Below, piece after piece: positions 3,140-30,413 of a stretch of 30,413 nt of DNA. A program made the position numbers and the translations under genes. The stretch's first letter is position 1, and each line of letters starts with the position of its first letter. The notes below the pieces were generated by a model. It made no database searches, was not told the origin of the DNA, and saw only the letters and a program-made list of their open reading frames with translations. The DNA is from a virus, in the IMG/VR virus record IMGVR_UViG_3300011013_000053, positions 1 through 30,413 of that record; one strand, written 5' to 3'.

Positions 3140-3784
3140 CCTGTTCCCCTTAGCGCTGTGGTAGCGTTTGACTATCTGGCGAGCGTTACTGGGGTATGAG
3201 ATGTCGTGCTTGTCAGCTACCTCCGGCCAACTCATCCCGCCGTCTCTATCGGCGGCCATCTGGGCGTGGTCGAGGGGCTTCTTACCTGCCTTCAGTCGTT
3301 GCGAGTCACTGTGGCTCCTCAATTTGACACCTTCAGACTTTAGTATGTCCTTTGCCCGACTGAGTGGCAAGTCTAGCTTGTCCTCTACTTGATACGTAGA
3401 CAAGAACTCCTTCGTATAGAGTCGCACCACTTCGGCCCAAGTCTCTGGGCTGTCCTGCCTGTGAGCCCTCTGGTGTTCGTGGAACGTGAGGTGTACGAGG
3501 TTACTGGGGTGATAGTTAGTCTTACTGAAGTCAATGTGGTGGACGTCAGTCTTGGTTGCAGGGTCGGGGTTATCCACGAGTAGGTCGGCTACTGCCTTGT
3601 GGACGTGGACTCTTGTCTGCTTCCCCATGCTAGTTCTCACTGCGTATACAGCAGGATAGCCTAGATGTAAATGCACCTTGGGCTTGAACCAGTCCAGCTT
3701 ATCAGTAAAGCGCCAAATCTCTAGCTTCTTTGGCTCTAGATAAGCGTCGGTATCGTCTATTGGTAGTAGGTCTTTGATGTTCAT
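3110..3784 (-). CDS. HNH homing endonuclease, paralog A
   Basis: 224 residues. An N-terminal domain starting MNIKDLLPIDDTDAYL precedes an HNH core: HKAVAD (62-67), VHHIDF with H82-H83, NLVHLT with N95, and H104. Two helix-turn-helix-like segments follow (about 117-155, and GGMSWPEVADKHD onward), suited to DNA recognition. It is about three-quarters identical by eye to the gene at 7408-8076, so one is a copy of the other. It follows thyA by 22 nt. No clear Shine-Dalgarno site is seen; ATATAAGATG at its start is shared with thyA. Its end overlaps the opposing gene at 3139 by 30 bp, suggesting insertion or read-in at that edge. Confidence 0.85.
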   Translation of the reverse strand: MNIKDLLPIDDTDAYLEPKKLEIWRFTDKLDWFKPKVHLHLGYPAVYAVRTSMGKQTRVHVHKAVADLLVDNPDPATKTDVHHIDFSKTNYHPSNLVHLTFHEHQRAHRQDSPETWAEVVRLYTKEFLSTYQVEDKLDLPLSRAKDILKSEGVKLRSHSDSQRLKAGKKPLDHAQMAADRDGGMSWPEVADKHDISYPSNARQIVKRYHSAKGNRSAWWGRDGF

Positions 3785-6890: not shown

Positions 6891-7411
6891 TACTTGTCCT
6901 CCTTGCGCTTGTCTTCTCTGCGGCGTATCTCCATCAAGTCGTCGAAGTAGCCACGAATCTCTGGGTCGGCGGTCTCCATGCGCTTGGCAATGGCCTCCTC
7001 CAATGAGGTAGGCTCGGGTGTGGTTAGAGCTTCACGCGAGTAGTAACCGGCCCATCTCTCGCGCAAACCATCTCGGTATGCGTCGTGAGCGGGCGTAGAA
7101 GAGACAGGCTTCGGCAGGGTGTCATCCTGACCAAGTATACCGCGCTCCTCGTTCCAGTCGTCGAACAGTTTGGAAAAGTCCCCACTGTCGTCCTCCTGTT
7201 CAGCCGAGAACTCTTCAGCCTCAGCCCACTCCTCCTCGTCGATGAGGAACTGGAGGTATTCTATCGCTTTCTCAAGGTCGGCAACACCGCCCTTAGCACG
7301 CCAACGAGACACGTACTTAACGACGTTTCCCTCACAGAAGTCAAGCCCGTTCGCCAGTATGTAGGCGATGGGTGAAATGGGTGTGTCATAGTGGTCTGGC
7401 TTCTTGGTCAT
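6890..7411 (-). CDS. DUF3310 family protein
   Basis: 173 residues. The N-terminal 60 residues match the phage DUF3310 pattern: HYDTPISPIAYILANG, then FCEGNVVKYVSRWRAKGG, then DLEKAIEYLQFLID. That pattern is common in phage nucleotide-metabolism regions, though its biochemistry is unsettled. The rest is an acidic helical extension (about 60-173) without a known domain. A strong GGAGG lies 8 nt before the ATG, and the start overlaps the upstream HNH stop as ATGA. It is followed by the methyltransferase with a 1-bp overlap. Presence with ThyA supports a nucleotide-supply role. Confidence 0.85.
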   Translation of the reverse strand: MTKKPDHYDTPISPIAYILANGLDFCEGNVVKYVSRWRAKGGVADLEKAIEYLQFLIDEEEWAEAEEFSAEQEDDSGDFSKLFDDWNEERGILGQDDTLPKPVSSTPAHDAYRDGLRERWAGYYSREALTTPEPTSLEEAIAKRMETADPEIRGYFDDLMEIRRREDKRKEDK

Positions 7412-8076
7412 AGTGTGTCCTCCTGTAGGTCTGTATCTGCTAGTCGGGTCTTGTAGCGTTTGACGATAGTGTGAGCGTTACCGGGGCTTAGGATATCGTG
7501 CTTATCGCACACCTCCTGCCAACTCATCCCGCCATCTCTGTCAGCGGCGACCTGAGCGTGGTCGAGGGGCTTCTTACCTGCTGCTATTCGTTTTCCGTCA
7601 CTGTTGCTCCTCATCTCGACACCTTCAGACCTTAGTATGTGCCATGCCTGAGTGCGTGGCAAGTCTAGTTTCTTATGGATTTGATACGTAGACAAGAACT
7701 CCTCCTTGTAGAGTCGCACCACTTCGGCTCTAGTCTCTGGGCTATCCTGCCTGTGGGCTTCTCTGTGTTCTGCGTGAGTGAGATGTACGAGGTTACTGGG
7801 GTCGTAGTTGTCCCTGCTGAAGTCAATGTGATGGACGTCAGTCTTGGTTGCAGGGTCGGGGTTATCCACGAGACAGTCGGCTACTGCCTTGTGGACGCGG
7901 ACGAGTGTCTGCTTCCCTGTGCTCGTCTTTACTGCGCTTACAACAGGATAGCCTGCATGTAGGCACACACTGGGCTTGAACCAGTCATTGCGCTCGGTAT
8001 AACGCCAAATCTCTAGCTTCTTGGGGTCAAGATAAGCGTCAGTGTCGTCAATCGGTAGTAGGTCTTTGATGTTCAT
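7408..8076 (-). CDS. HNH homing endonuclease, paralog B
   Basis: 222 residues, starting at the ATG at 8076 rather than the upstream in-frame start at 8112. That region holds the promoter, whose TATAAT ends exactly six nt before this ATG, and the protein then begins MNIKDLLPIDDTDAYL exactly like paralog A. The HNH core is VHHIDFSRDNYDPSNLVHLT (about 81-100) with following His residues, then two HTH-like segments including GGMSWQEVCDKHD. It is about three-quarters identical by eye to 3110-3784. The mRNA is predicted to be leaderless. Its 3' end overlaps the DUF3310 start by 4 nt, so it sits inside a working operon. Confidence 0.87.
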   Translation of the reverse strand: MNIKDLLPIDDTDAYLDPKKLEIWRYTERNDWFKPSVCLHAGYPVVSAVKTSTGKQTLVRVHKAVADCLVDNPDPATKTDVHHIDFSRDNYDPSNLVHLTHAEHREAHRQDSPETRAEVVRLYKEEFLSTYQIHKKLDLPRTQAWHILRSEGVEMRSNSDGKRIAAGKKPLDHAQVAADRDGGMSWQEVCDKHDILSPGNAHTIVKRYKTRLADTDLQEDTL

Positions 8077-8082
8077 ATGTCT

Positions 8083-8112
8083 ATTATAGCACAATTGCGC
8101 TGCTGCTGTCAA
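8083..8112 (-). promoter_or_regulatory. Consensus promoter, leaderless-type, for HNH paralog B
   Basis: TTGACA (8107-8112), an 18-nt spacer ending TGTGC, TATAAT (8083-8088), then six nt and ATG at 8076. The -35 overlaps the stop codon of the preceding gene (8109-8111). Confidence 0.85.
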
Positions 8113-10301: not shown

Positions 10302-10331
10302 ATTATAGCACATTTAGCCTTCTGTGTCCAA
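10302..10331 (-). promoter_or_regulatory. Promoter, leaderless-type, for 9726-10295
   Basis: TTGGAC (10326-10331), an 18-nt spacer ending TGTGC, TATAAT (10302-10307), then six nt and the ATG. The -35 lies inside the 3' end of the terminase ATPase gene. Confidence 0.75.
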
Positions 10332-12230
10332 TCTAATGTCAAAACCTTTCATGGCTTTTGAGTAGTCTTCGGCGTACTTGTCGGCGATGAGCACCTCTTG
10401 TTCGATGCTCTCAAAGTCGTCGCTGACCCGCTGGATGAGGATTCCCCACCTGTCACGGACTTCTGGGTCGTTGATTATCTCACCTGCCAAGTCCCGCTCG
10501 TGCCACCGGGTAGCAATCATGATGGCGCTGCCGGTCGGCTCGATACGAGTGAGCCAGACTATTTTGAAAGTGTTGTTTATAGCGTCTCGCTTGGCGGGCT
10601 GCGCGATGACTGAGTTGTAGTCTCCCAAGTCATCTGCGAGCAGGTAGTCGCAACGACCACCAATACCCGTAGAGGTCACACCCTTCGCATCGATGCTTGC
10701 ATCCTTGGCGTTGGTTGTTCGCTCTACGAACAGTCTGTGCTTTGTCCATTCCCTCTTCTCGTCAGGCTTCAAGCCGGGGAAGATGGCCTTCACGTCCTCA
10801 TCGTGTGCGATGTAGGTACGGATAGATGCTAGGCGTTCTTTAGCTGAGTCGTCTGAGAGGCCGATAAGTTTGAGTCGTATGTTAGGATTTGAGCCAATCA
10901 AGTAGACCGGCAGAGCAATCCCGAACAATTGGGTCTTACCTGAGTTGTGGTCTACGGTGAAGTCGTCGAGTAGGTAGCGTCCGTCGTCTGTCACCTTGAA
11001 TCCGAAGTACTGCTCGGTCTTATTCGTGGGTTCGATGTTGAATCCACGAACGAGTGAATCCTTCTTCCACAACGCCTCCCTACCGTCTGCTGCTTGTTTG
11101 CGAAGAACTCGGGTTGGAATTTTACTAGTATCTCCTCCAATGTAGACGCGGTAGTAAGCTCTAAGCACAGGGTTTTTTGAGTTCGTCGCTCGTTTCTGGC
11201 ACTTGTTGACCGAGGCCGTAAGTCCTACGCTTCGGGCTAAGAAAACCACGTCGTTCGCTAACTGCTCAGACTTACTTATATAATCAAAGCTGCGACCGTG
11301 GAGGTGGCCGTCTGTGTCGAGTAGCCCCGCTAGAACCTGAAGCTGTACGGTTTCGGCATTGACCTTGTACGCCTGCGGGACGCGCTTAGTCCCGGACAAG
11401 CAACGGTCTAGTCCTACTTGGGTGAACATCTGTTTGATGACCTGTCCTCGGAAGTTCACAGATACGACATCGTTCCTCTTATCAGGCTCCAGTCGGTACT
11501 CAATCCCCGCCGCAGTCGCCATGTCACCAACGGCCTCCAGTAGTTCAGGGTCAGGTGAAGTAAACGAGTACATCTTCCCAAAGTAACCGTCACCTAGCAT
11601 AACGCCCATAAAGTATGGGTCGATTGCTACTGAGCTAGGCTTCCACTCCACTGCTGTCTTAAACAGTTTATAGACTGACTTTTTCCACGTAGTCCAAGTC
11701 AACCACTCATCGACTGTGACCTCAATCACCTCGCCCGCTAGTCGGTTAGCTGCACCACCCGTTACCGACTCGGTGGTTCGCTTTAGTACGAGAATGTGGT
11801 CGCCAGTAACGGTGTACGAGTGTCCTCGGTCTGTGATGTTGTATGTCGGTTTTTCTCCTGTGTGGGTCTCTGTGACTTTTCGCGGCTTAGAGTCCGGGCC
11901 TACTAGGGTGTCGCCAACAACTACGTTCTCTACTTGCTTTGTCGAGCCATCTACTAGAAGTACGCCTTGACCCGCCGTATGACAGCCCATAGGAGCCAAC
12001 ACGAGACAGTTAAGCTCGTGCTCAAGACAGAACCTCATGTGGCCTACCCACGCCCTATGTAGAGGAGCGAGCGTGATGGCCTTGCCGGTCACCTCGTCTT
12101 TGATGGCCATTTCGGCAAAATCCTCAAAGCTTTCGCGAGCCTTCTGGAGCTTGCGCTCACGCTGCATGTTTTCAGCAGCAGCGGCTAGGGCTTCTAGCTC
12201 TTCCAGCTCCTTTATCTGCGTAGTCTTCAT
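10314..12230 (-). CDS. Terminase large subunit, ATPase half, with intein
   Basis: 638 residues, of which 83-429 are an intein; the spliced product would be 291 residues. The extein shows a TerL ATPase: ITLAPLHRAWVGHMRF near the start, the Walker A P-loop rebuilt by splicing as LAPMG/SGKT, Walker B CDYLLADDLGD (about 527-536) and the coupling motif IATRWHERDLAG (about 572-583). It would hydrolyse ATP to drive DNA packaging. The protein ends about 55 residues after the coupling motif, without the nuclease domain, which lies on the opposite strand at 14485-15243. The start overlaps the upstream gene as ATGA. Each half keeps its own key motifs, so a two-protein terminase is plausible; a relic with an intact TerL elsewhere is possible. 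Confidence 0.92.
   Translation of the reverse strand: MKTTQIKELEELEALAAAAENMQRERKLQKARESFEDFAEMAIKDEVTGKAITLAPLHRAWVGHMRFCLEHELNCLVLAPMGCHTAGQGVLLVDGSTKQVENVVVGDTLVGPDSKPRKVTETHTGEKPTYNITDRGHSYTVTGDHILVLKRTTESVTGGAANRLAGEVIEVTVDEWLTWTTWKKSVYKLFKTAVEWKPSSVAIDPYFMGVMLGDGYFGKMYSFTSPDPELLEAVGDMATAAGIEYRLEPDKRNDVVSVNFRGQVIKQMFTQVGLDRCLSGTKRVPQAYKVNAETVQLQVLAGLLDTDGHLHGRSFDYISKSEQLANDVVFLARSVGLTASVNKCQKRATNSKNPVLRAYYRVYIGGDTSKIPTRVLRKQAADGREALWKKDSLVRGFNIEPTNKTEQYFGFKVTDDGRYLLDDFTVDHNSGKTQLFGIALPVYLIGSNPNIRLKLIGLSDDSAKERLASIRTYIAHDEDVKAIFPGLKPDEKREWTKHRLFVERTTNAKDASIDAKGVTSTGIGGRCDYLLADDLGDYNSVIAQPAKRDAINNTFKIVWLTRIEPTGSAIMIATRWHERDLAGEIINDPEVRDRWGILIQRVSDDFESIEQEVLIADKYAEDYSKAMKGFDIRLDTEG
10944..11984 (-). 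other. LAGLIDADG intein in the TerL P-loop
   Basis: 347-residue in-frame insertion (host residues 83-429). Block A begins with C83 (CHTAGQGVLLVDG). Block B has TxxH (T142-G-D-H145). Two LAGLIDADG-type motifs carry the homing-nuclease aspartates: MGVMLGDGYFG (D214) and LAGLLDTDGHL (D307). Block F is YFGFKVTDDGRYLLDDF, and block G ends V-D-H428-N429 followed by Ser430. Cys1, the penultimate His, terminal Asn and +1 Ser are all present, so splicing and homing both look competent. The site splits the Walker A motif between Gly and Ser-Gly-Lys-Thr, a highly conserved spot typical of intein insertion. Confidence 0.95.
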
Positions 12231-14031: not shown

Positions 14032-14484
14032 ATGACTAAGGTAGAACACGAGAAGTGGCTTGACTGCTTAGACCTCGAACCGCACGAGCTGGTATGCATG
14101 CGCCGTTGGTGCGAGGAGGCCGAAAGGACTGGTAAGTGTGACCCACTCCGGTATCTCATCGAACACGCCAAGGCCAAGGTGCAGGAGGCCGCGACTCAGA
14201 AGCGCAAGGAGAGAAGCCGCCAACTTCGCACCGCAGCCAAGTCCATCCGCGAAGGGGCTAAAAGAGCTAAAGCTGTCGGCACGTATGAACCGAAGTCCAG
14301 TGCTACTCGGACAGGTAAGGCTTACATGGAGAAGTGGGGGATGACCCCGCCCTGCCAGCACTGCGGCACGACTGAGCACATGAGCATCGACCACATTATC
14401 CCTATCTCCAAGGGCGGCACCAACGCACTGGCTAACTTGCAGCCGCTGTGCCTGCCCTGTAATATAGCTAAGGGAGACAGGTAA
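14032..14484 (+). CDS. HNH endonuclease next to TerL nuclease gene
   Basis: 150 residues. A helical, basic N-terminal half (about 1-100) precedes a classical HNH domain with C108-x2-C111 (PPCQHCG), catalytic D120-H121 in IDHIIPISKGG, ANLQPLC, and C140-x2-C143-N144 (CLPCNIAKGDR). It is transcribed from a strong promoter with the ATG six nt after the -10, so probably leaderless. Its TAA is followed directly by the GTG of the TerL nuclease half, and AGGGAG inside its end serves as the ribosome site for that gene. The endonuclease is thus first gene of the packaging-nuclease transcript. Confidence 0.9.
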   Translation: MTKVEHEKWLDCLDLEPHELVCMRRWCEEAERTGKCDPLRYLIEHAKAKVQEAATQKRKERSRQLRTAAKSIREGAKRAKAVGTYEPKSSATRTGKAYMEKWGMTPPCQHCGTTEHMSIDHIIPISKGGTNALANLQPLCLPCNIAKGDR

Positions 14485-15304: not shown

Positions 15305-16708
15305 ATGGCGTTTATCGACCGGATAAAGAAGGCAACGGGCATAGGACTAGCAGAGAGAAGCATAACCTCTATCGACACTGAGGAGAAAGCCTCGGCTGCT
15401 GCACCTCTTATCCACGAGGATACGAACCACGGAGCCAGCAATATCTTCCAGCCACCCTCCTCAGGACAGGGATATGGTGACCTAGGCATCCAAGGCGACC
15501 AGAGTCACACCGACATGCTCGGGCAATACGCTCGCAGCCTCTGGGTTTACATCGCCATCAACCGCATCACGAACGCCTTGAATCAGATTTCCCTAAGAGT
15601 AGTAGACAAGCGCAAGAAAGGGAAAGCCAACGACGAGGTCAAAATAGGCCAAGGACTCGTTAAGCTCCTTGAGCAGCCCAACCCTCACACTACCCGCGTC
15701 GAGTTTCTTGAGACCATCATCCAGCACCTCTTACTTACGGGCAACGCCTTCATCGAGAAAGCCGAGACCGATAGCCGAGGCCGACCCAAAGAGCTCTACA
15801 TCCTCAACCCCAAGAACATGGTCGTCGTGCCTGACCGCAAGCACTTCATCAAGGGCTACCGTTACGTAGTCAACGACAAGACCATCTCCTTCCCGAAGCA
15901 GAGCATCATCCACATCAAGCTGCCCGACCCCCGCGGAGAGAGCAGATACGGCCTGTCACCTATACAAGCAGCCCGTAGCATGATTAACACTGACCACCAA
16001 GCAAGAAGCTGGAACACGTCGTACTTCAACAACGCGACGTGGCCGTCCGGTATCATCACCTCAGAGGAGGCAATGAGCGAGACCGAGTTCAGGCGAATGA
16101 AACGCGAGCTACGCCAGAACTACGAGGGCACCAGCAAGGTTGGTAAGGTATTGGTCTTAGAGGGAGGTTTGAACTGGCAACAGACGACCCCGAACCCCAA
16201 AGACCTCGACTGGCTGAACACCCTGAAGAATGCACGCGAAGAGATACTGTCTCTGTTTGGCGTACCCCCCTCAATCGCAGGCGTGTTCAACCAAGAGTCC
16301 AGCAGCGGAAGAAGTGCTGGCGTTAGAGACCAGAGCATGCAGTTCTGGACTAATACTGTCAACCCTCTCCTAGAGCGCGTGTTGGTTAGACTCAATTTGG
16401 AGTTGGCTGACCTGTTCAGTGAGAACTACGAGATAGTAGGTGACACCGACAAGATTCCTGCCCTCAAGGATACTGTGGAGATGCAGTTGGGTAAGGCCGA
16501 GGCTTTCAAGACGCTGGTAGACGCTGGCTGGCCGCCCAACGATGCGCTGGCTGAGTTCTACCCCTCAGTGAAACCCTTTGAACACGGAGACAACCCCCTG
16601 CCTGCGCTCAACTTCAAAGGTGAGGTCGATGCTGCCGCCGAGACTGCCGCTAATGTTGCGGCTGCTGCGACTGAGAAGCCTAAGAAGGACGCTAATGGAA
16701 ACAAGTAG
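15305..16708 (+). CDS. HK97-family portal protein
   Basis: 467 residues, normal for the family. Portal rings sit at one head vertex and pass DNA. Family features include YARSLWVYIAINRITNALNQ (about 75-94), the LLEQPNPHTTRVEFLETI block, GNAFIEK, the LYILNPKNMVVVPD strand set, RYGLSPIQAARSMI and LFGVPPSIAGVF near residue 320. The C-terminus is Ala/Lys-rich. GGAGG lies upstream of the ATG with a rather long spacer. The gene lies right after the TerL nuclease half and overlaps the next gene by 14 nt. Confidence 0.95.
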   Translation: MAFIDRIKKATGIGLAERSITSIDTEEKASAAAPLIHEDTNHGASNIFQPPSSGQGYGDLGIQGDQSHTDMLGQYARSLWVYIAINRITNALNQISLRVVDKRKKGKANDEVKIGQGLVKLLEQPNPHTTRVEFLETIIQHLLLTGNAFIEKAETDSRGRPKELYILNPKNMVVVPDRKHFIKGYRYVVNDKTISFPKQSIIHIKLPDPRGESRYGLSPIQAARSMINTDHQARSWNTSYFNNATWPSGIITSEEAMSETEFRRMKRELRQNYEGTSKVGKVLVLEGGLNWQQTTPNPKDLDWLNTLKNAREEILSLFGVPPSIAGVFNQESSSGRSAGVRDQSMQFWTNTVNPLLERVLVRLNLELADLFSENYEIVGDTDKIPALKDTVEMQLGKAEAFKTLVDAGWPPNDALAEFYPSVKPFEHGDNPLPALNFKGEVDAAAETAANVAAAATEKPKKDANGNK

Positions 16709-18501: not shown

Positions 18502-19962
18502 ATGGATACAGTAGATAAGTCTGACGACGTGCAAGCGACTGACGACAAAATCGAAGTTGACGTCAAATCTGGTGACACCTTCTCTGAGTTGGCCAAGGAA
18601 GTGAAAGCACTTCGTGAAGCCGCTGAGAGCGCTGATGCCCGTGCGAAAGAGACTTCGGAGTACAAAGAAAAGACTGATGCCATGACTTCTGAGATTGAGG
18701 CTCTGCGCAAGCAGTTGACTCGCGAGACCAAGACCGCCCGTCAGGGTGAGTTCGAGGTCACAGACTCGGATGTCAATATTCCGTCTTACACTGGCAAGCA
18801 GCTCGATAGGCTCTTCACACTCAAGGCTCAGGCCGGAAGTGACGTGGAGCGTATGCAAGAGGGCAACGACATGCTTTACATAGCCAACACGATTCTCGGT
18901 GGAAATGCGATGAAGCATGCCGAAATCGCTGACTATGTGGGCGAGCAGTACCCTGAGCTGGCGAAAGCTATGGATACCGGAGACAGCACTCAGGACGTTA
19001 CGACGTCTACAGGCTGGATTCCCACTGGCTTTTCAGCCAGTATGGTGGAAGCCGTGAGGTTGCAGCTTAACGTTGCTAACCTGCATGGTCGTTTCAGCAT
19101 GCCCACGAACCCGTACAAGCTGCCCATCGAAGGTGCTGACATCAACGCCTACGTTGTGAGCGAAGCGACTACGGACATCGCAGACCACACTGAGTACGTG
19201 ACTGCCCAGACATCCGACACAAGCAACGTAGTGTTCAACGCCAAGAAGATTGGCGTTCGCACCGTGGTTTCGACCGAGATGACTGAGGATAGTATCGTTC
19301 CTGTGCTGCCTTACGTTCGTGACAAGATAGCGCTGGCGCTGGCCGAAGCTCAGGAGAACGTCCTGATAAACGGTGACCTCCGAACCTCGGGAACCACTAA
19401 CCTTAGTGGTCTCACGTACGCTTCGGGTGGACAGCTTCAGGCGTGGGATGGCTACAGGCGTATGGCTCAGATAAGTGGCACGACCACTGACTTGAGCGGC
19501 ACGTTCTCGTTGGCTAACCTGCGTAAGCTGCGGACTGCAATGGGTAAGTACGGTGTTTCGACCCGTAACTTGGCCTTCGTGGTTGGCATCAACGCATACC
19601 ACACCCTTCTGGACTTAACGGAAGTCGTGACTGTTGATAAAATCGGCAGCCGCGCTACTATCCTCGACGGCCAGATGGGCAGCATCGACGGCATCCCCAT
19701 TCTCATCTCGGAATTCGTTAGCGAAGACTTGGATGCGGTTGGTGAGTCTGAAGGTGGTGGGGGTGGAACCACAGAGATTCTGTGTGTCCGCACCGACGCG
19801 ATGCGCTTCGGCGATAGGCGTGGCATCACGCTGAAGAGTCGTGAACAGATAGAAACCGACCAAAATGTGGTGGTGGCTTTACAGCGCCTCGACTTTAAGG
19901 CCGTTCAGAGCACTAGTGATTCGATTGTGTCGGCTGGTGTTGGAGTTGCTCTGAAGGCGTAA
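18502..19962 (+). CDS. HK97-fold major capsid protein
   Basis: 486 residues. Residues about 1-115 form a coiled-coil delta-domain-like region (FSELAKEVKALREAAESADA), likely removed by the protease. The rest follows the HK97 capsid order: GWIPTGFSASMVEAVRLQL, the N-arm and E-loop strands (NPYKLPIEG through VVFNAKKIGVRTVVSTEMTED), the spine helix YVRDKIALALAEAQENVLING, then the P-domain with LRKLRTAMGKYG, AFVVGINAYHTLLDL, GSIDGIPILISEFV, and RGITLKSREQIETDQNVVVA near the end. A Gly run (SEGGGGGTTE) marks a surface loop. Shine-Dalgarno AGGAGA precedes the ATG, and a terminator follows. Confidence 0.93.
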   Translation: MDTVDKSDDVQATDDKIEVDVKSGDTFSELAKEVKALREAAESADARAKETSEYKEKTDAMTSEIEALRKQLTRETKTARQGEFEVTDSDVNIPSYTGKQLDRLFTLKAQAGSDVERMQEGNDMLYIANTILGGNAMKHAEIADYVGEQYPELAKAMDTGDSTQDVTTSTGWIPTGFSASMVEAVRLQLNVANLHGRFSMPTNPYKLPIEGADINAYVVSEATTDIADHTEYVTAQTSDTSNVVFNAKKIGVRTVVSTEMTEDSIVPVLPYVRDKIALALAEAQENVLINGDLRTSGTTNLSGLTYASGGQLQAWDGYRRMAQISGTTTDLSGTFSLANLRKLRTAMGKYGVSTRNLAFVVGINAYHTLLDLTEVVTVDKIGSRATILDGQMGSIDGIPILISEFVSEDLDAVGESEGGGGGTTEILCVRTDAMRFGDRRGITLKSREQIETDQNVVVALQRLDFKAVQSTSDSIVSAGVGVALKA

Positions 19963-20123: not shown

Positions 20124-20732
20124 ATGGCTAATAATGCCCCCAGTACACAGTTTATGCAGATACCCACCTCGGGCGCGACCACAACCGTGGACACCCCCGG
20201 CGAGCGTATCGCCATTGTTGGAACCACTCTGGCCACCAACAACGGCACGACCGACACACAAATTACCCCTTGGGATTTCGGCACAGTCGATATCTCAGCA
20301 GGAGCCGCTAACTCAGCGGTCTTCAACCTTATCTGGACGGTCACTGCCGACAACGGCAACACGACCGCTGACAACTTTCGCTTCTGGATGTCCAACGATG
20401 GATTCGCTAGTACGACAGACCTAAAATACGCCTGTCTCTCTGGCCCTGAAATCAACACGACTACAGACTCTAACATCGACGCGGTTTACGTGGCGAGTGC
20501 TACCACTGGTAGTTACACGTACCGAACCTCGAACGACGAAGGTGAAGGCGAACCTACCGTGAACTTGGCTGCCGCAGACGATACTAACAGCTTGTCCCTG
20601 TCCTCAGGTTCGACTGATGGTATCCATATTGCAGCTTACTTTGCGGTGGTTGACGAGGAAAAGACAGGTACTTATCAAGGCACGACGGCTGGTTACGAGC
20701 TACAGTGCAGTTTGAAGTTCGACTTCAGCTAA
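20124..20732 (+). CDS. Putative virion protein, beta-rich
   Basis: 202 residues, with AGGAGAA before the ATG. The composition is Thr/Ser/Ala/Asp-rich with alternating hydrophobic residues, typical of beta-sandwich virion proteins (AIVGTTLATNNGTTDTQI, then FNLIWTVTADNGNTTADNF). Position right after the capsid gene, between its own promoter and a strong hairpin, suggests an abundant head decoration or similar structural protein, but no family is recognised. Confidence 0.65.
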   Translation: MANNAPSTQFMQIPTSGATTTVDTPGERIAIVGTTLATNNGTTDTQITPWDFGTVDISAGAANSAVFNLIWTVTADNGNTTADNFRFWMSNDGFASTTDLKYACLSGPEINTTTDSNIDAVYVASATTGSYTYRTSNDEGEGEPTVNLAAADDTNSLSLSSGSTDGIHIAAYFAVVDEEKTGTYQGTTAGYELQCSLKFDFS

Positions 20733-20877: not shown

Positions 20878-21468
20878 ATGCCGGGGCCAGAGATAAAACA
20901 AGGTTACATACAGTTTCTTTACATTCATCGCAATGGAGACGTCGAGTCTTCTCGTGACTTCCACTGGCGTGACATCGAAATCGAGACCTTGGTTCGTATC
21001 GAGTGTTACTGGCGGCGTGGTTCCTTCGTCCTAGACGTAGACGACCTCCCCCCTGACTTCTTGGAGTTCGTATCCTACCGCTCCTCAGGCACCACCAAGA
21101 TTACGCTGTCGGACGGCAGCTCAGCCATCGTCCCCCTCGACTCAATATCGTTCGGGTACACAAATGGCTCACAGGAGTTTCTTACTGAGTTCCACTATTT
21201 TGATGGAACCATCCTAAAGAACGACCTCGTCAACGTACATGTATCTGACCCCAACATAAACCTAACCCACTTTCACCCTCGCTCCGTTCGTCCCATACCT
21301 GACATCGTCAAAGGTAGAGGCCCGTTTCAATCATGGGTGCCGGGTCAGGGTAAGCCCCCGTTCCCAGTCACACGCCGCCAAGCAGGGCCGAGACATCCGA
21401 GAAGCAAAGCAGGCGGGCCACAAGGAAGACCAGACATTCAGGCCAAGCCCCAGCGCAGGAGAACCTAA
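20878..21468 (+). CDS. Hypothetical late protein with basic tail
   Basis: 196 residues with a strong GGAGG. The first 130 residues look beta-rich and compact (GYIQFLYIHRNGDVESSRDF, DISFGY-like strands). The last 60 are Pro/Gly/Arg-rich and strongly basic (RRQAGPRHPRSKAGGPQGRP), probably disordered and able to contact nucleic acid or acidic proteins. No domain is recognised. It is the first gene of the transcript leading into the secreted-protein cassette. Confidence 0.65.
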   Translation: MPGPEIKQGYIQFLYIHRNGDVESSRDFHWRDIEIETLVRIECYWRRGSFVLDVDDLPPDFLEFVSYRSSGTTKITLSDGSSAIVPLDSISFGYTNGSQEFLTEFHYFDGTILKNDLVNVHVSDPNINLTHFHPRSVRPIPDIVKGRGPFQSWVPGQGKPPFPVTRRQAGPRHPRSKAGGPQGRPDIQAKPQRRRT

Positions 21469-21883: not shown

Positions 21884-22288
21884 ATGAAAATATTACTTAG
21901 TATCTTAATGGTGAGTCTCATGGCTGTACCTTCCTATGCGGGATGTATAGACGAGGTTGTCTCCTTAGAGAGAGAGCTGGTTGCTACCAAGCAGTACGTA
22001 GGGGAGATGTCCCTCGTAATGAATGCAGTAGGCGCAGCAGCTTGGGCCAGACGAGCAGACGGCACCTTATGCCGCGACATCCCACCCGAAGCGGCCTGTC
22101 GCAGCGACATGGGTGACTTCCGTTTCCTCCTTGCTTACTACACCCAGATGACAAAACTTCGTGATGCAGTGACTACTGCCTGTGTGGGTGAGCCGAACGC
22201 TAACGTGCGCCTCTTCAGGGACGCCATACTTAATAGCTTAGACATAAATATCGCTAAACTACACGCGATGGAAGACCAACGCAACTAA
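21884..22288 (+). CDS. Secreted helical protein with signal peptide
   Basis: 134 residues. Residues 1-19 form a Sec signal peptide (MKILLSILMVSLMAVPSYA, then GC). Cys right after AG gives a possible lipoprotein-like site, but the lipobox is not convincing. The mature part is helical with four Cys (positions around 21, 63, 72 and 100) that could form disulfides. No family is recognised. First of five consecutive genes with signal peptides. Confidence 0.65.
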   Translation: MKILLSILMVSLMAVPSYAGCIDEVVSLERELVATKQYVGEMSLVMNAVGAAAWARRADGTLCRDIPPEAACRSDMGDFRFLLAYYTQMTKLRDAVTTACVGEPNANVRLFRDAILNSLDINIAKLHAMEDQRN

Positions 22289-22314
22289 TCAAGATTAAGT
22301 AGGAGGGTATAAAG

Positions 22315-23184
22315 ATGCGTAAATCACTACTCCTCGCAGCCACGGTGTTAGTAGTCGTAGGCTCCTTTCTGTCCTCGGACGCGCTCCGAGCGCGCATCTC
22401 TTCGCGTGGCCTCAAGATATTCAGTAACGCTGCATACCAAGGTAAGGCTACCACACTCAACTTTGATGCTAATTACAGCGTAGACTGTGAAGCAGAGAAG
22501 AAGACCTGTCAAGTGGCGCTGGACAACGACGCGTACATAGTAGGCGAGACCGTTCCCTATCTAGCCACAGACCTCCCCATAACAGGCACCGCGTGGAGTC
22601 CCGGCATCGACATCATCCAACTGCTTGACGCACCAGACAGTGCCAATGACCCAGTAAGTAAATCCTACGTTGATGCCTTTGACACCAACGTCCCTCCTCT
22701 CCGCAGGCAGGTAGTACTGTTCGCCAACGTCGATGTCATGTCAGGTGATGGAGTATCTCGGGTTTTTACCTATTCCGCAAGCGATACCTTTGGCCCCATA
22801 ATGAGCACTAGCGTTGGGTTCGACGGTACGTGTCACACCTTCTATGCCCACATAGAAGGTGTCACAGGCGAAGCGGACGAACAGGTATCCATCCAATTCC
22901 GGTTGAACGCACAGACCTCAGACTACGTATTCTCCTGTTACATACAGACGGATACCGATGTTACCTGTACCAACTTAACCGACAACAGCACTTGCACGGC
23001 AGCCAACACACCAGACCACTGCTGCTCCGGCTTAGGAACAGGAGTGTGTGGCACGCTGGCGGTAGCCGCTACTGACACGTTCTACTTTGGCTTCCAGTGT
23101 GATGACCTAGTTGGCACCCCCTGTCCACTGAACGGTTCTGACCCCACTGTAAGTGCAACCCTAGCCTGCACGGAGGATTTCTAA
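22315..23184 (+). CDS. Secreted fibre-like protein, paralog 1
   Basis: 289 residues; GGAGGG precedes the ATG. Signal peptide at about 1-24 (MRKSLLLAATVLVVVGSFLS). Then a module shared with the next two genes: GKATTLNF, CQVALDNDAYIVGET, DLPITGTAW, and APDSANDPVSKSYVDA. The last resembles the 'SANDxxTKSYVD' element of phage tail-fibre and collar proteins. The C-terminal half is Cys-rich and contains CCSGLGTGVC, also found in the 1513-residue protein. Together these suggest an exported, disulfide-bonded surface or fibre protein, which is inference. The stop and next start overlap as TAATG. Confidence 0.65.
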   Translation: MRKSLLLAATVLVVVGSFLSSDALRARISSRGLKIFSNAAYQGKATTLNFDANYSVDCEAEKKTCQVALDNDAYIVGETVPYLATDLPITGTAWSPGIDIIQLLDAPDSANDPVSKSYVDAFDTNVPPLRRQVVLFANVDVMSGDGVSRVFTYSASDTFGPIMSTSVGFDGTCHTFYAHIEGVTGEADEQVSIQFRLNAQTSDYVFSCYIQTDTDVTCTNLTDNSTCTAANTPDHCCSGLGTGVCGTLAVAATDTFYFGFQCDDLVGTPCPLNGSDPTVSATLACTEDF

Positions 23185-23990
23185 TGAAGCAGCTAGGAAG
23201 AGTACTGGCACTATCCTTAGTAGCCTTCTCTATCTCCTACGTCTCAAACGCTGGGCGTGTCGCTACTAGACACGTCTCTGTCCAGAAAGAGGGCGTGACA
23301 GTAGGCAGAGCACGCGTCCTCAACTTGAGTACAGGCTTTACAACCACCTGTGTTGGAGGAGGTAACCCTGAATGTGATATATCCCAAGACGCTAACGTGT
23401 ACGTAGAAGGCGAGACGACACCAGCTACCGCCGCTGACCTTCCTACGTCAGGCTCGTGGACAGTTGACCAAAACAACATACAAATTACGGCTGACCCAGA
23501 TAGTGCTAATGATGTAGTTCGTGCGGGCTACAATCGACAACACCGAAAGAAGATGTTACGATTCTCGACAAACAACCTATCCCTAGCAGACGGCACTCTT
23601 CAGTATTGTAGTATGGCTAGATGCTCCACACTTAGTCCTATCACACGCACTTCGCTCGGGGGGGTAGGGTCGGGTCTGAGCCTGTATTGCGATGAGATAA
23701 ACGTGGAAGTGACAGGCAACCCGGTTGAGGCAGGTAATAACGCAGACGTCACTGTGGGCTTGTGGCGTAATGCATCCTTCACTACGGGCTGCGCGTGTAC
23801 TCTTTTGATTAAAAGTACCACAGGGGCGAGTACATACGCGTGTACCGATACTTGCACTTACTCCTTTAACGAGTCTGACGACTGGGTTTTTAAGGTACAA
23901 TGTGATGGAGCAGGCTGCCCTATATCGGCAGGCTTCGGCGTCAACGTCTCAGGCGCAGCACGCTGCTTCGTAGATGATGGGTACAACTGA
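23184..23990 (+). CDS. Secreted fibre-like protein, paralog 2
   Basis: 268 residues. Signal peptide at about 1-23 (MKQLGRVLALSLVAFSISYV). The shared module follows: VGRARVLNLSTGF, CDISQDANVYVEGETTPATA, ADLPTSGSW, QITADPDSANDVVRAGY. The C-terminal half has about a dozen Cys with DECYS-type spacing (GCACTLL, YACTDTCTY, VQCDGAGCPIS) and ends ARCFVDDGYN. Like its neighbours it appears exported. It overlaps both neighbours by one base (TAATG and TGATG), which favours translational coupling. Function unknown; probably acts with the paralogs as a group. Confidence 0.65.
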   Translation: MKQLGRVLALSLVAFSISYVSNAGRVATRHVSVQKEGVTVGRARVLNLSTGFTTTCVGGGNPECDISQDANVYVEGETTPATAADLPTSGSWTVDQNNIQITADPDSANDVVRAGYNRQHRKKMLRFSTNNLSLADGTLQYCSMARCSTLSPITRTSLGGVGSGLSLYCDEINVEVTGNPVEAGNNADVTVGLWRNASFTTGCACTLLIKSTTGASTYACTDTCTYSFNESDDWVFKVQCDGAGCPISAGFGVNVSGAARCFVDDGYN

Positions 23991-24754
23991 TGGACAGGTT
24001 TTATTTCATAATAGCACTGCTGGCTTTCACAGGTTCTCTGTTTCTGGGTGACAACCTGAAGGCACAGCGCGTACCTCTTCGAGGGGTTGCCATACAAGAC
24101 AACTCCGTATTGAAGGGTAGCGCGACTACCCTCGACTTCGCAAGTGACTTCACGGTGGTCTGCAACTCAGGAGGCCAAGAGTGTGACATCGCACCCCTGT
24201 CCACTGTGTATATGGTTGGAGAACTAACACCTGACACCACAGCGGAGCTACCCACCACTGGAGTATGGGAGATAAATCAAGACACCCTACAGATTAGTGC
24301 TGACCCAGATAGCAACAACGACATAGCGCGCAAGTCATACGCAGACAACGCACAGAGAATGTGGCTAATGGCCAGCTTGTCTCACGACACCACACTGACT
24401 AACGGCACCCACCGCTACTACAATCAGAATGGTGGTTGGGCGTCTAACAATGAGGCAGAGATAGTAACGGCTACCGCCTTTACCTGCGACCATCTCTGGG
24501 TAGACACGATTGGACTTGGCACACCTAACACTGACGAGACTATGGAGATATGGCTGCTGAAGAATGATGTCGCCACCGACTTGACTTGTACCATAGACAC
24601 GAGCGCTGAGGTAGACTGCGACGACGCAGGCTCAGCATCCTTCGTCCTTGGTGACACCTACTCATTTGAAGCAACCTGCGATGGCACTGACTGTCCCCTG
24701 AGTGCTGCATTCGGGCAAAATATGACTATGATAGCGGACTGCTTACTGGATTAG
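23990..24754 (+). CDS. Secreted fibre-like protein, paralog 3
   Basis: 254 residues. Signal peptide at about 1-25 (MDRFYFIIALLAFTGSLFLG). The shared module: RGVAIQDNSVLKGSATTLDF, CDIAPLSTVYMVGELTPDTT, AELPTTGVW, QISADPDSNNDIARKSYADN. The C-terminal part ends with EATCDGTDCPLSAAFGQ, closely matching the VQCDGAGCPISAGFG block of paralog 2. The three genes therefore arose by tandem duplication and divergence. It starts inside the previous stop (TGATG). Confidence 0.65.
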   Translation: MDRFYFIIALLAFTGSLFLGDNLKAQRVPLRGVAIQDNSVLKGSATTLDFASDFTVVCNSGGQECDIAPLSTVYMVGELTPDTTAELPTTGVWEINQDTLQISADPDSNNDIARKSYADNAQRMWLMASLSHDTTLTNGTHRYYNQNGGWASNNEAEIVTATAFTCDHLWVDTIGLGTPNTDETMEIWLLKNDVATDLTCTIDTSAEVDCDDAGSASFVLGDTYSFEATCDGTDCPLSAAFGQNMTMIADCLLD

Positions 24755-24764
24755 AGAGGATAAC

Positions 24765-27700
24765 ATGACGAAAATACTTACAACAATACTAGCTGCCACC
24801 CTCTTATGGGGGGCTCCCGTGGTCGCTGCTGACCGCGAGTATGGTGACTTCCCGTTTACTGATGGGTTTGAGTACTGCTTTCTCGCTGAGGAAGCGGGCT
24901 TATCTCACTGCGAAACTGACGCTACCGTTCGCTGTACACAACGAGGAGGTAGGTGTATCTCATCTGTTTGTACTGACTCGGTTAACGCCGCGTCGTGTAC
25001 TACGGATGCTGACTGCCACCATCCAGAGCTAAACTGTAGTGAGGAGGTACCATCAGGCCAAGCCTGCCTCGAACGTAGGAGCGGTAGCACTGCATGGGAC
25101 GTGCCTATTTATAGCCACATGGCCTCCGGCACTATAACCGCCCAAACCAGTAGCCCAGACGGAACTCCGTTTGCTGGCTTTACCTACCAAGGAGACGGCT
25201 TTGACATTTTCACGACCGGCGTTTGCGACATAAGTCCCGGCAATAATCGGACATATAAATGTTTCGTGGACGCCGATTGTGCCGCGAACTCCGACTGCAC
25301 GGCGTCAGAAACTCCCGCAAAGTGCTGTACCGGCTCAGGAACAGGTACGTGCCTTGGCCCCGGTTACTCGGTTGGCGCTTGTGATGCAGGCACTGACATA
25401 CCCTACAGCCGAGGCTATCCGGGTAGCTCTTGTGCTATGGCCTTCGTCGCTGACGCTAGTCAGACGGAGTGCTCTACCTCCTCAACTTGTGATGGCACTG
25501 CTCCTAATAAGTCATGTTCTAATGACGGAACCTTTTGTAACGACGCGGACGACTGTGACGATTTCTGCACTATTGACGCGGATTGTGCTGTTGCATGCAG
25601 TGGAACAGCCAACGGAGGGGACGCCTACATAGCCCGTGTAGTGGAGGAACGTTCTGCTGTCGTTCACGCAGCTATCGCTATGGATTCTCTTGTGACTAAC
25701 AACGTTACTACCCTTGGACTGAGAAAGCCATTCATGGGTTTCATGGACTCCAATTACGAGAATCAGTGCCACCTACAGGCCGAATTCGTTTCGTGCGACA
25801 TCTATGACGTTGGTAAGAAAGAGTGTACCACAGCACAGTGGAACTACAACGTTTCGCTTTATTACAAAGAGGACAAGTTCAGGTGTGACGCAGGTAGTCG
25901 TAACCCCGACACAGCCTGCGAACCCGACGCGAACAACCATGACGACGACAACTGCGCGGCGACTACTGCTGGCGAGGCTCTATGTTCCTCGGGTGCTATA
26001 GCTGTTGGGCAGGTTGACGCTGGTACGTTCGTTAACATGGCTATCGAGGAAGACCACGGAACCTGCGACGTTACACCCGCTTCTACTAACTGTGGAAACA
26101 CAGAAGCGGGTAAGTGCGACAACGACGTCACTCAGACATGTGCCTCAAACTCTGACTGTGGTCTATGCTCAACTGACAATAGTTGGTGCGCAAACGCCAA
26201 CGACTGTCCACAAGGGTTGCTTATTTGCGGCGCGTGGCTAGACGGGGTTGATATAGGTCATTCTACCTTTCTCGCGGGAGCCTGTACCGAAGACGGCTGG
26301 GCCTGCGGAGACAACGACGACTGTCAGTATATGGGAACGTGTGACGCCAGTGTGTGCACTAACACAGGTGATGCTTGCTCTGTAGACGGCGACTGCGAGT
26401 GGGACGGAAGGTGTAGTAGTTGGACGCTCAACCCTACGTGTCTCGTGCTGGCAGGCGACGACAAGTGTAGCAACAACGGGTCTACCACATGCACGACCGA
26501 CGACGACTGCGACCTTGATTACCCATTCGACGAATCAGCTCAACGCTGTCGTACCTCGGCTGACTGTTCAGGCAGCGACACGTGCGACGTACAGACGTGT
26601 GACACCACGAGTGTGAAGCAACTAGAAGAGACATGGCTTGGTTTTAAGGGGCAAATTACTAACTACGCGTCTATCCCTCCTAGTCAACGAGGTACTGGTG
26701 GTTACTTCGGTATGGTTGCTGATGACTGGATTGGAGTCAAAGGCCCCAACGAAACATCCGCCATTCGTGCCCGCGTAATAACGTGGTTCCCACAGGAAGA
26801 GTTCTTAAACACAGGAAGCGAACAGAATTGGAACCCCAACAGTTGTGCTGGAACCGACCACTGGGAGTGTGTTAGTGACTGGTCATTCGAGTCTGCGACT
26901 ACCGGAGGTAGTACTGTTGATGACAACCTAGGGGGCAACGCCAATAACGAACAAAGCGCGTGGGAGATGGGAGTTGACTGTATTAACGACAAATGTTCCG
27001 TGTCTGGCTTAGTATCTGACATTCACGACACAGCTAACGCATGCTCTCCTACATATAGTTGTTCTGCCGGATTTTGTACACAAACAGGTGCAACCTCAGT
27101 AGCCTGCACACAGAACGAAGACTGTAACGGCGCTGAGTGTCCGCTTGTCGAGTTGTGGTCTACCGACTGTGATGTAGACAACAACCAGTGTACTGCTGCT
27201 AACGTCCCCGCTGCCTGCTGTACTGGCAGCGGCACTGGAACTTGCACCGGCACGTTTGAGTGTAACGAAGGACATTGTAGTGTTGACCGAAACACAACCT
27301 GCACTGTTGATGCCAACTGTTCCTCGTTATCACCCTCGGGACAGGTCTGTGTCTTGACCGTATGTACCCAAGATGCAGACTGCGCGGAAACCATCCACAT
27401 AAACACACCCCTCACTACAACCAGTCTGATGTCTGACTCGACAGAGGGCTGCACAGGAAGCCAAGACCCAGCCGATAACACCGGAGGCACCAAGGGCGTT
27501 GTACCCTACTTGTTTGACGCAGATGGTGGAGCTACCGCAGAAGATTGTAGCGCCGGTACACTGTGCAGTATTGGCACTGACACTATTGTTGTAGGAACCA
27601 ACGTCTGTAGCGACTACGCGGCTGATGGAGAGGCCAGCTTTATCAACGACTGGAACGACCTCGACTGGACTCTCGCTAAACTGAATGACGGTATTGGGAT

Positions 27701-29306
27701 AGGCATACAGTACCAGAATGTCCCCGGCGCTAATAAGATTATTAGGATGGCCAGTAACATGGTTTCCGTACCTGTTAGTCTGCCCCTGAACGCTTGTAAC
27801 CCTTCGTTGCCTGACGTCAACGGTGATGGCCGGATAACCATGTGTGTCACAGGCGATTCGACTTACGCTAGCTCAGAGTTTGAGAGCCAAGTAACCTCTA
27901 AGATATGTAACCCCGACGACGTACTGTTTGCCGCAGCAGGGTCGATTAAGGCTGCTGACGTTACCAAGAACATTACGTATATTATGAATGGCTCCGGTGG
28001 AACTGACGTTGACCCTCTACTAAAAGCTGACGCCCTCCGTGGTTCGGTATGCGATGCCACTGCGGGTACTTGTAGCGGCTGCGACTACACAGTAGTAGGC
28101 ATTGGAATTAACTCCATTCGGTCTAGTATTCGAGGAATAACAGTTTCGCAGGGTTACTGTCACAACCCCGGAGCAACAGACTCGGGAGATGGCTGTACGT
28201 GTCCCTCCTCGTCGGCAGCAGTCAGCACAGCAGATAAGCTAGGCTACTGCACCCAGATACCATCAGGCCAGACGTACAAAACTGGCTTCGCTTTTAAGAC
28301 TGCCTGTAACACAGGAGAATGCACAACCGCTCAATCAGGATTTGCAGGACTGGCATATGAACAGGGCATACCCTTCTGTTTCCCCGGTCGGAGCAAGTGT
28401 ACGGCTGGTGTATGCGAAGAACCACGTGCGATTACCTACTGGGGCAACTTCTCCGAGACTTGTAACGTAACCAACGCCCCTAACGTGTGTGGCGGAGACA
28501 TGACTACTGCATGCACCAGTGACGCCGACTGCTACAGAAACAGCGACTGTGACGGTACGGCTAGTGACTTTAGCTGCTGTACTGGTCTAGGCACCGGTAC
28601 TTGCACAGGGGGTGCCAGCGCCCCCGGTGGAGGTTGTGGCTCTGCGGACTGTGATGCATTCTTTGACTGGTGCGTTCCCGCCTGTGACAACTCCCCTAGT
28701 TGTGGTGGCCTGTGTTTCGACGGAGGCACCCAGAGCCAATCCAGCGTGATATCCTCTCACATACAGATGATTGATGAAGCAGACCACCGCAACCTTTTCC
28801 CCTACTGCGTGAATGACACAGACTGCTCCAACAACGTCTGCACCGACTTTCCTGACATAGCCTGTGACGTCACCGGAGACTGCCCTAACAACTCTGCTTG
28901 TGGTGGTACTAAGATTGGTGGCACATGTGTCGCTAACCAGTGCACGGGTAACGACACGGAACTAATTTTCATGGCACAACCCGCCGGTAACGCCGTCTAC
29001 AACGAGAACAAAGATGACGGGCAGCAGCCCGCCGGAGACAGTGGTTGTTGGTTCGGTTCTTTTGACGAGCTTGACAGTCAAGCAAATGCCATCATCCAAT
29101 TAGCAAAGGACAGAGGCGTACACTGGATTGACCACAACGGGTACGCCCACGAGAACTGCCCCAAGCACCAGAGAGGACGCTGCACCTCAGATGGCATCCA
29201 CTATGACACCGAAGGCTCAGTCATCGCTGCCGAGGTGCTGAGAAACTGCATGGCGAATACATCAGGCACGTCGGGTACTTATTACGACTGTGACTTCACG
29301 CAGTAG
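24765..29306 (+). CDS. Giant secreted Cys-rich protein with SGNH-esterase-like C-terminal region
   Basis: 1513 residues, preceded by GAGAGGA. Signal peptide at 1-21 (MTKILTTILAATLLWGAPVVA). About 125 Cys by hand count, many in C-x(3-8)-D-x-DC repeats such as CTTDADC, CFVDADC and CTQDADC. CCTGSGTGTC-type modules occur at DNA positions 25323, 27216 and 28575. The C-terminal region has SGNH/GDSL-hydrolase marks: block I VTGDSTY (S1032), a possible block III GIGIN (N1116) and block V DGIHYD (D1476, H1479). The spacing is far longer than in ordinary SGNH enzymes, with Cys-rich insertions between III and V. SGNH enzymes remove acetyl or acyl groups from glycans and lipids. It is likely an exported surface- or fibre-associated esterase. 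Confidence 0.75.
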   Translation: MTKILTTILAATLLWGAPVVAADREYGDFPFTDGFEYCFLAEEAGLSHCETDATVRCTQRGGRCISSVCTDSVNAASCTTDADCHHPELNCSEEVPSGQACLERRSGSTAWDVPIYSHMASGTITAQTSSPDGTPFAGFTYQGDGFDIFTTGVCDISPGNNRTYKCFVDADCAANSDCTASETPAKCCTGSGTGTCLGPGYSVGACDAGTDIPYSRGYPGSSCAMAFVADASQTECSTSSTCDGTAPNKSCSNDGTFCNDADDCDDFCTIDADCAVACSGTANGGDAYIARVVEERSAVVHAAIAMDSLVTNNVTTLGLRKPFMGFMDSNYENQCHLQAEFVSCDIYDVGKKECTTAQWNYNVSLYYKEDKFRCDAGSRNPDTACEPDANNHDDDNCAATTAGEALCSSGAIAVGQVDAGTFVNMAIEEDHGTCDVTPASTNCGNTEAGKCDNDVTQTCASNSDCGLCSTDNSWCANANDCPQGLLICGAWLDGVDIGHSTFLAGACTEDGWACGDNDDCQYMGTCDASVCTNTGDACSVDGDCEWDGRCSSWTLNPTCLVLAGDDKCSNNGSTTCTTDDDCDLDYPFDESAQRCRTSADCSGSDTCDVQTCDTTSVKQLEETWLGFKGQITNYASIPPSQRGTGGYFGMVADDWIGVKGPNETSAIRARVITWFPQEEFLNTGSEQNWNPNSCAGTDHWECVSDWSFESATTGGSTVDDNLGGNANNEQSAWEMGVDCINDKCSVSGLVSDIHDTANACSPTYSCSAGFCTQTGATSVACTQNEDCNGAECPLVELWSTDCDVDNNQCTAANVPAACCTGSGTGTCTGTFECNEGHCSVDRNTTCTVDANCSSLSPSGQVCVLTVCTQDADCAETIHINTPLTTTSLMSDSTEGCTGSQDPADNTGGTKGVVPYLFDADGGATAEDCSAGTLCSIGTDTIVVGTNVCSDYAADGEASFINDWNDLDWTLAKLNDGIGIGIQYQNVPGANKIIRMASNMVSVPVSLPLNACNPSLPDVNGDGRITMCVTGDSTYASSEFESQVTSKICNPDDVLFAAAGSIKAADVTKNITYIMNGSGGTDVDPLLKADALRGSVCDATAGTCSGCDYTVVGIGINSIRSSIRGITVSQGYCHNPGATDSGDGCTCPSSSAAVSTADKLGYCTQIPSGQTYKTGFAFKTACNTGECTTAQSGFAGLAYEQGIPFCFPGRSKCTAGVCEEPRAITYWGNFSETCNVTNAPNVCGGDMTTACTSDADCYRNSDCDGTASDFSCCTGLGTGTCTGGASAPGGGCGSADCDAFFDWCVPACDNSPSCGGLCFDGGTQSQSSVISSHIQMIDEADHRNLFPYCVNDTDCSNNVCTDFPDIACDVTGDCPNNSACGGTKIGGTCVANQCTGNDTELIFMAQPAGNAVYNENKDDGQQPAGDSGCWFGSFDELDSQANAIIQLAKDRGVHWIDHNGYAHENCPKHQRGRCTSDGIHYDTEGSVIAAEVLRNCMANTSGTSGTYYDCDFTQ

Positions 29307-29318
29307 GTAATTTAGCGT

Positions 29319-30413
29319 ATGAGCTTGCTTCTCCTCTTTAACGGACTAAAAGCAGCAGTTGTGGTAGCGAGCATTAAGCTCGTTATTAAAGACTCTCGCT
29401 TTGACGTTCTCAACGCCAAGCTCATCATACAGGACGTACTGGCGTCTATCGTCAACTCTAAGCTCGTCATCGAGGACGATAACGTAACCCTAGTTGACCT
29501 CCGGCTCGCTGTGCAGGATAATCTGACAGCTATCCTAGGTGGCAAGGTGGTAGTCTCAGACGCCCTCCAGCCTATCGTTGACGCTAAGCTCCGGCTTAAG
29601 GACGAGCTAACTGCCGTCCTAGACTCCAAGCTAATCACGACAGACGACTCCACAACGGTAGCTGACCTCAAGCTCATTCTACAAGACAACCTGTCCCCTC
29701 TTCTGGACGCCAAGCTCATTACGAAGGACGAACTAACCTCCATCCTCGACAACAAGATAGTCCTGAAAGACGAGGTCAACAACTTACTCGACGCCAAGCT
29801 CATCACGCAGGACAACATAATCAACGTCCTCAACGGCTTGGTAAAGGTGCAAGACTCGTTGGTGCCTACCCCTGACGCTAAGCTAATCGTCGCAGACGCC
29901 ATCAGCACCATCGTTGACACCCAGATACAGGTCGCCGACACTTACAACCCTGCCGCTGACGCTAAGCTGATTGTCCAAGACACAATCCTCAATACTGCGG
30001 ATGTCAAGGTAATCCTCAAAGACGCGCTGACCACCCTTGTCAACCAGAAGCTCATCATCACGGACGACGCAACCAACGTACTAGACTCAAAGCTCATCGT
30101 ACAGGAGAACCTCGTTAGCCTCGCCGACCTGACAGTGATAATCAAGGACACCCTCGACTCCGTCACTGACTTTAAGATGATAGTGCAGGACGCCCTCACA
30201 GCGACAGCCGACATGAAGGCTATTGTGACGGACGACTCCAACACTGTCCTCGACCTTAAACTGGCCGTGCAGGAATTCCTCAGCACCATAGTTGACGCAA
30301 AACTCATCGTACAGGACGACCTCACAACAGTAGCTGACCTCAAGCTCATTGTGCAGGATAGCCTGACCTCGATTGTTGACGGCACGATGACCATCCAAGA
30401 CGCTGCTAGTAAC
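29319..30413 (+). CDS. 14-residue-repeat fibre-like protein (partial, runs off window)
   Basis: 365 codons from the ATG at 29319 with no stop before the window ends. After a 19-residue start (MSLLLLFNGLKAAVVVASI) come 24 consecutive 14-residue units and part of a 25th, with no insertion or deletion. Consensus is about K-L-I-V-Q-D-x-L-T-x-I-V-D-A. Position 6 is Asp in 22 and Glu in 2 of the 24; position 13 is Asp in 19, Asn in 4 and Gly in 1, so acidic residues recur every seven positions. Alternating hydrophobic residues suggest a regular solenoid or fibrous shaft. It has no signal peptide of normal form. Place at the end of the structural region suggests a fibre, not proven. Confidence 0.8.
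   Translation, partial: MSLLLLFNGLKAAVVVASIKLVIKDSRFDVLNAKLIIQDVLASIVNSKLVIEDDNVTLVDLRLAVQDNLTAILGGKVVVSDALQPIVDAKLRLKDELTAVLDSKLITTDDSTTVADLKLILQDNLSPLLDAKLITKDELTSILDNKIVLKDEVNNLLDAKLITQDNIINVLNGLVKVQDSLVPTPDAKLIVADAISTIVDTQIQVADTYNPAADAKLIVQDTILNTADVKVILKDALTTLVNQKLIITDDATNVLDSKLIVQENLVSLADLTVIIKDTLDSVTDFKMIVQDALTATADMKAIVTDDSNTVLDLKLAVQEFLSTIVDAKLIVQDDLTTVADLKLIVQDSLTSIVDGTMTIQDAASN

Follow-up and report, generated by a model that had tools for sequence, protein, structure and literature searches.

At its 3' end the window, by which we mean the whole stretch analysed, an entire linear IMG/VR virus record of 30,413 bp, encodes an array of 14-residue repeats that probably forms the receptor-binding fibre shaft of a tailed phage, a stack of beta units with two co-assembled or accessory partners, C1 and C2, the set being exchanged as a module. 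The same repeat is present on at least 20 further contigs, 19 of them viral and one from an Omnitrophota MAG and, to judge from sequence, these constitute a new family of phage fibre-like arrays, met so far only in uncultured phages in the collections searched.

The array ORF opens with an ATG at 29319 and has no stop codon before the contig ends at 30413, as the first-pass annotation had it in describing a gene that runs past the window. Its description of a gap-free array of 24 copies also stands: the units start at residue 19 (nt 29373), 24 are complete, a 25th is incomplete and there is not one insertion or deletion. Its positions 6 and 13 are positions 7 and 14 in the numbering used here, and at these the acidic residue reported for the former is Asp in 22 of 24 units and Glu in the other two, while the latter is Asp in 19, Asn in four and Gly in one. 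Residue identity within the array is 0.31 at a lag of 14, and 0.37 at lags of both 28 and 56, against a maximum of 0.172 in 1000 shuffles over lags 1–59, and there is a 7-residue sub-period with peaks at lags 7, 21 and 35. Strict 42-nt periodicity accompanied by divergence had been proposed, and the units do average only 36% identity as protein and 52% as DNA. Where two units share a residue they use the same codon in 0.59 of pairs vs 0.56 expected from codon use. Since synonymous codons are thus close to random between units, the protein pattern has been kept by selection and not by recent duplication; the strong constraint envisaged acts at the protein level, with synonymous change saturated. 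No recent duplication is visible in the window array and its units are old. Tandem Repeats Finder misses it, as expected at such divergence.

Table. Positions of the array gene, its partner genes and the head genes in the window
Feature	Position	Strand	Remarks
Portal protein	15305-16708		phrog_12, E 4e-69
Major head protein	18502-19962		phrog_10, E 7e-24
C1, partner, 202 aa (192 aa in most relatives)	20124..20732	+	On every array contig found
C2, second partner, 196 aa (~135 aa in relatives)	20878..21468	+	Pairwise similarity weak, 25%
Array protein, 3' end missing	29319..30413	+	18 N-terminal residues, then 24 complete units of 14 and the start of a 25th
Short N-terminus with LLFN motif	29319..29372	+	Common to nearest relative L306/L142; without lectin-like domain
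24 gap-free 42-nt units	29373..30380	+	Consensus (A/G)K(L/V)x(I/V)xD-xLTx(I/V/L)xD
Partial 25th unit, 11 residues	30381..30413	+	Cut by contig end

The search for other proteins with the pattern, which the first-pass annotation had advised, is what yielded the family. Relatives came from scans with degenerate DNA patterns that span consecutive units, the candidates then being given a 14-column score that is higher when units keep in register. An initial, less strict pattern gave at least 119 stretches, and the tally of arrays in the collection is accordingly a minimum. Because the position-specific score used for unit counts was derived from these same arrays, it undercounts weak units; its thresholds of 5, 6 and 8 served different counts (5 for the 327-unit composition given below, 8 for arrays at C1 loci). 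Among the matches listed, nine viral contigs were found by pattern (L081, L142, L154, L140+L171, L144+L285, L163, L133, L282 and L287), L001 and L002 being the window itself; L186, L204, L203, L165, L260 and other low-complexity matches were left out of the family counts. In the genome collection one of 88 pattern stretches was judged real, that of the Omnitrophota contig L267, the others being, by profile score and reading, coiled-coil, simple repeats or chance. A direct search of the viral contigs with the window protein gave nine pattern matches and no confirmed relative, and no genuine array relative was found in 50,697 phage records. The top match there, MT835791, is a permease-like protein with long coiled-coil-like stretches and was set aside, with four further weak MT83 records also left aside; a match to the cultured Alteromonas phage XX1924 (E 3e-3) was rejected since the gene annotated there is on the other strand. 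A literature search confined to open-licence papers, and so weak evidence of absence, found no publication on the 14-residue repeat. PHROG has a family of function not known, phrog_30105, which spans only part of an array and matches part of that in the window at E 2.4e-8, that of L081 at 5.4e-4 and that of L142 at 0.003.

The family consensus is GKVIIKDSATNLLD, or by position G K V/L/I x I/V K D x x T D/N L L/F D (327 units from 20 proteins). The closest BLAST match of the window array is that of L142 (E 3e-38, 33% identity over 284 residues); both proteins have the LLFN motif near their start, and at position 1 of both the commonest residue is Ala or Ser, not Gly. In this nearest relative (L306/L142) the array stops after 21 units and is followed by ~65 residues. 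The 42-nt rule is not absolute family-wide: in the loci of 19 relatives 225 of 263 unit spacings are exactly 14 residues and 16 are larger multiples of 14, the remaining 22 being off register, mostly 15, 16, 29 or 30. In L295 (1-2688) a four-unit block has been duplicated recently, with units 9 and 13 identical in all 42 nt, which shows how arrays can grow. The array at L310:9220-10683 has His in place of Asp at position 14 in 87% of its units, usually after Phe or Trp, perhaps to stack like side chains in a ladder or to bind a metal. L140 and L171 are one 137-kb contig with two array cassettes whose N-terminal sequences differ; either the phage has two adhesins or separate pieces were joined in assembly.

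What might such a unit look like? Over the 327 units the share of hydrophobic residues is 85% at position 3, 97% at 5, 84% at 12 and 97% at 13, positions 6, 7, 11 and 14 are mostly polar, and proline is down at 0.3%. Gly occupies position 1 in 73% of units, giving Asp-Gly or Asp-Ala across 14-1, and the strongest period in the hydrophobicity spectrum is 2.33, with a weaker one at 3.5. These preferences point to beta strands, not alpha. Each array is uniform at positions 13 and 1, and arrays differ from one another there (Fst over 15 arrays 0.38 at each position, with shuffle maxima of 0.032 and 0.045); other positions reach at most 0.12, save 14, whose high value is due entirely to L310 (0.475 when that array is included, 0.022 when it is not). 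Codon homogenisation was little or none in the nine stretches tested, L292 being slightly above expectation. Uniformity of positions 13 and 1 within arrays whose codons are hardly homogenised suggests that like positions of adjacent units are in contact, as in a stacked fibre, though founder units, and not stacking, could also have produced it.

The first-pass annotation had offered a solenoid shaft as an example of the structural constraint. The hydrophobic pattern of beta type, the uniform turn residues within arrays and the lectin-like domain that precedes the array in relatives favour the shaft; a monomeric solenoid model was not obtained. An AlphaFold2 monomer of the whole window protein from single sequence has a pLDDT of 43 and is strand-rich in its C-terminal half; one of ten units from a 17-row alignment (used in place of a 12-unit alignment that was discarded for its gapped register) has a pLDDT of 40 and is strand-rich throughout, pTM being at most 0.37 in these models. 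The models are of low confidence yet strand-rich, so the disordered chain against which the array was to be checked is not indicated. Such poor monomer models fit an obligate oligomer but also plain prediction failure. Searches of solved structures gave no significant match, the best E values being 0.13 with the profile, 0.046 with L306 and 0.99 with the window protein.

The array has company. Only three of the 39 window ORFs, namely the array, C1 and C2, have BLAST matches in the flanks of the relatives, leaving aside L003, from a phage closely related to that of the window, on a contig that stops short of the array. C1 is 69–82% identical to the reference copy of L282 in seven other relatives and 46% in the window. 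A C1 search of the viral contigs gave 23 loci, at 19 of which there is an array ORF with at least three units; as background, two of 10,559 ORFs from other loci reach three units. The four C1 loci lacking an array (L291, L304, L308 and L309) are on contigs that end 2.0, 1.2, 3.1 and 3.7 kb past C1, with several kb upstream of C1 present in all four. Conversely C1 is on 11 of the 11 contigs, window included and among the matches listed, that were found through the array alone, being recognised on L133 via L289, on L142 via L306 and on L154 only with the wider contig. C1 and array occur together on 21 contigs, though L299/L300 and L302/L303 look like near-copies, and among the 287 loci L001–L287 C1 is confined to array loci and L003. 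A C2 scan gave seven loci, all on contigs already known; the C2 profile was built with the window C2 among its members. The members of C1 and C2 that were tested matched no Pfam or PHROG family; neither has a match in the 50,697 phage records, nor C1 in 72,556 plasmid records. Searching 285 Omnitrophota genomes with C1 returned the genome of L267 and one weak partial match (E 1.5e-5), and no host is claimed. Gene order varies: the array is just ahead of C1 on some contigs and directly, or several genes, after C2 on others. Apparently array, C1 and C2 are a conserved cassette, mobile between otherwise unrelated phages.

Judged by its portal and major head genes the window is from a tailed phage. 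A search of ten neighbouring proteins showed a tape measure in L140 and L142 and a different capsid family in L282; head genes differ among array-bearing phages. The N-terminal domains differ as well. Among 17 array proteins scanned, those above the Pfam cut-off are Laminin_G_3 in four (L287, L282, L140 and L154), SPRY in one (L133) and DUF285 in one (L300), other array proteins having unnamed N-terminal sequence; the Pfam scan gave no N-terminal domain for the array proteins of L142, L310 and the window, whose 3' end is missing. A lectin-like domain before the array in relatives fits a shaft role. In many tail fibres the binding domain is not N-terminal, the reverse of this placement. Many array proteins end in short beta-like repeats of ~10 residues (judged by eye), and L298 and L301 have only three units followed by a large protein, which in L298 has a tail-related PHROG match.

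Other features of the window phage may be recorded here. The 10314-12230 (-) ORF encodes a Hint domain with a LAGLIDADG homing endonuclease (Hom_end_hint E 2e-13) and so has the look of a putative large terminase interrupted by an intein; in L003 the homologue is shorter and its alignment falls into two parts, as though the intein were missing. Directly upstream of the array is a 1513-aa protein with 126 cysteines (24765-29306, +) and no Pfam match; GDS and DGIHxD motifs towards its C-terminus resemble those of SGNH hydrolases. Five consecutive ORFs in 21884-29306 (+) have signal-peptide-like N-termini by eye, unusual beside a putative fibre, those at 22315, 23184 and 23990 being paralogues. 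The contig starts with 4.7 perfect copies of a 26-bp direct repeat (1-123), the ORFs at 3110-3784 (-) and 7408-8112 (-) are related (one was tested and has no Pfam match), and there is an HNH endonuclease ORF at 14032-14484 (+).

Several other readings of the array deserve consideration. That it is a coiled coil or other helical rod is highly improbable: its 7-residue sub-period, and the coiled-coil-like proteins with similar letters (L186, L204) that surfaced in the same scans, might encourage the idea, but the a/d hydrophobic fractions in the best heptad phase are 0.15, 0.97, 0.45 and 0.84, Glu and Met make up 2.2% and 0.2% of residues, and the frequent Gly at position 1 also tells against it. 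A YadA-type left-handed parallel beta-roll, as in the heads of trimeric autotransporter adhesins, has more to recommend it and is nevertheless unlikely. PMC9543794 gives the YadA-head motif as GxNSVAIGAxSxAx, with a conserved Gly at 8 and a period of 14 residues. The phage array resembles such heads in its period, two half-units (a 7+7 layout is possible), long arrays and adhesin context, and differs in having one Gly position, Asp at 14 and Lys at 2, and in sitting in a phage gene with no membrane anchor seen. In the best phase the second, conserved Gly of the motif is present in only 2% of the 327 units and the motif letters match 17% on average, and no YadA-type head is among the profile matches to solved structures at E up to 10.

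A viral rod bearing a binding domain brings to mind the triple beta-spiral of the adenovirus fibre and reovirus sigma1 (PMC3150272, PMC8869412), here shortened to 14 residues. This would be the same kind of object, and if its trimers are intertwined and obligate, that could account for the weakness of the monomer models. However, the array does not follow the 15-position pattern given in PMC3150272, hydrophobic at c, e, g, k and m with Pro/Gly at j: whichever phase and permitted single deletion is chosen, the weakest hydrophobic position reaches 28% at best, and Pro/Gly at j is 0%. In the array proteins, unlike those shafts, the lectin-like domain is on the N-terminal side; we consider a triple beta-spiral improbable. 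No better are the prospects of a non-adhesive role, as a flexible spacer or in capsid decoration. No binding domain was found in the window protein and C1 comes soon after the capsid gene, but a spacer or decoration protein sits poorly with the lectin-like domains of the relatives, and a disordered spacer would not be expected to keep so strict a period.

In the shaft that we prefer, each unit would contribute a pair of short beta strands, one at about positions 2-6 and the other at about 10-13, with a turn at 7-9 and another at the Asp-Gly/Ala of 14-1 connecting them, and units stacking in register would yield a rigid rod, most likely a homo-oligomer and, by analogy with other fibres, probably a trimer. 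Many relatives would have the lectin-like domain at the N-terminal end of the rod and the short beta-like tail at its C-terminal end. We infer a place on the virion and receptor binding for such a fibre, of which C1 and C2 would be co-assembled or accessory proteins, the three being swapped together between unrelated phages. It is a more speculative and somewhat doubtful proposition that the array has a fold absent from all solved structures, in which 14-residue units carry a ladder of Asp-Gly turns, and that with C1 and C2 it is a self-contained host-recognition cassette, placing different lectin-like heads on one type of shaft and passing among phages whose head and tail types differ and whose hosts are uncultured bacteria.

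Host recognition by uncultured phages is mostly unreadable from sequence. If the shaft reading is true, the adhesin gene could be picked out in their genomes by a simple, easily recognised unit and two conserved partner genes, and the repeat shaft would show where the binding domain is located and give structural studies a rigid repeat scaffold. In the L310 array, where nearly every unit has exchanged Asp for His at position 14, we have Nature's own experiment on what holds the units together.
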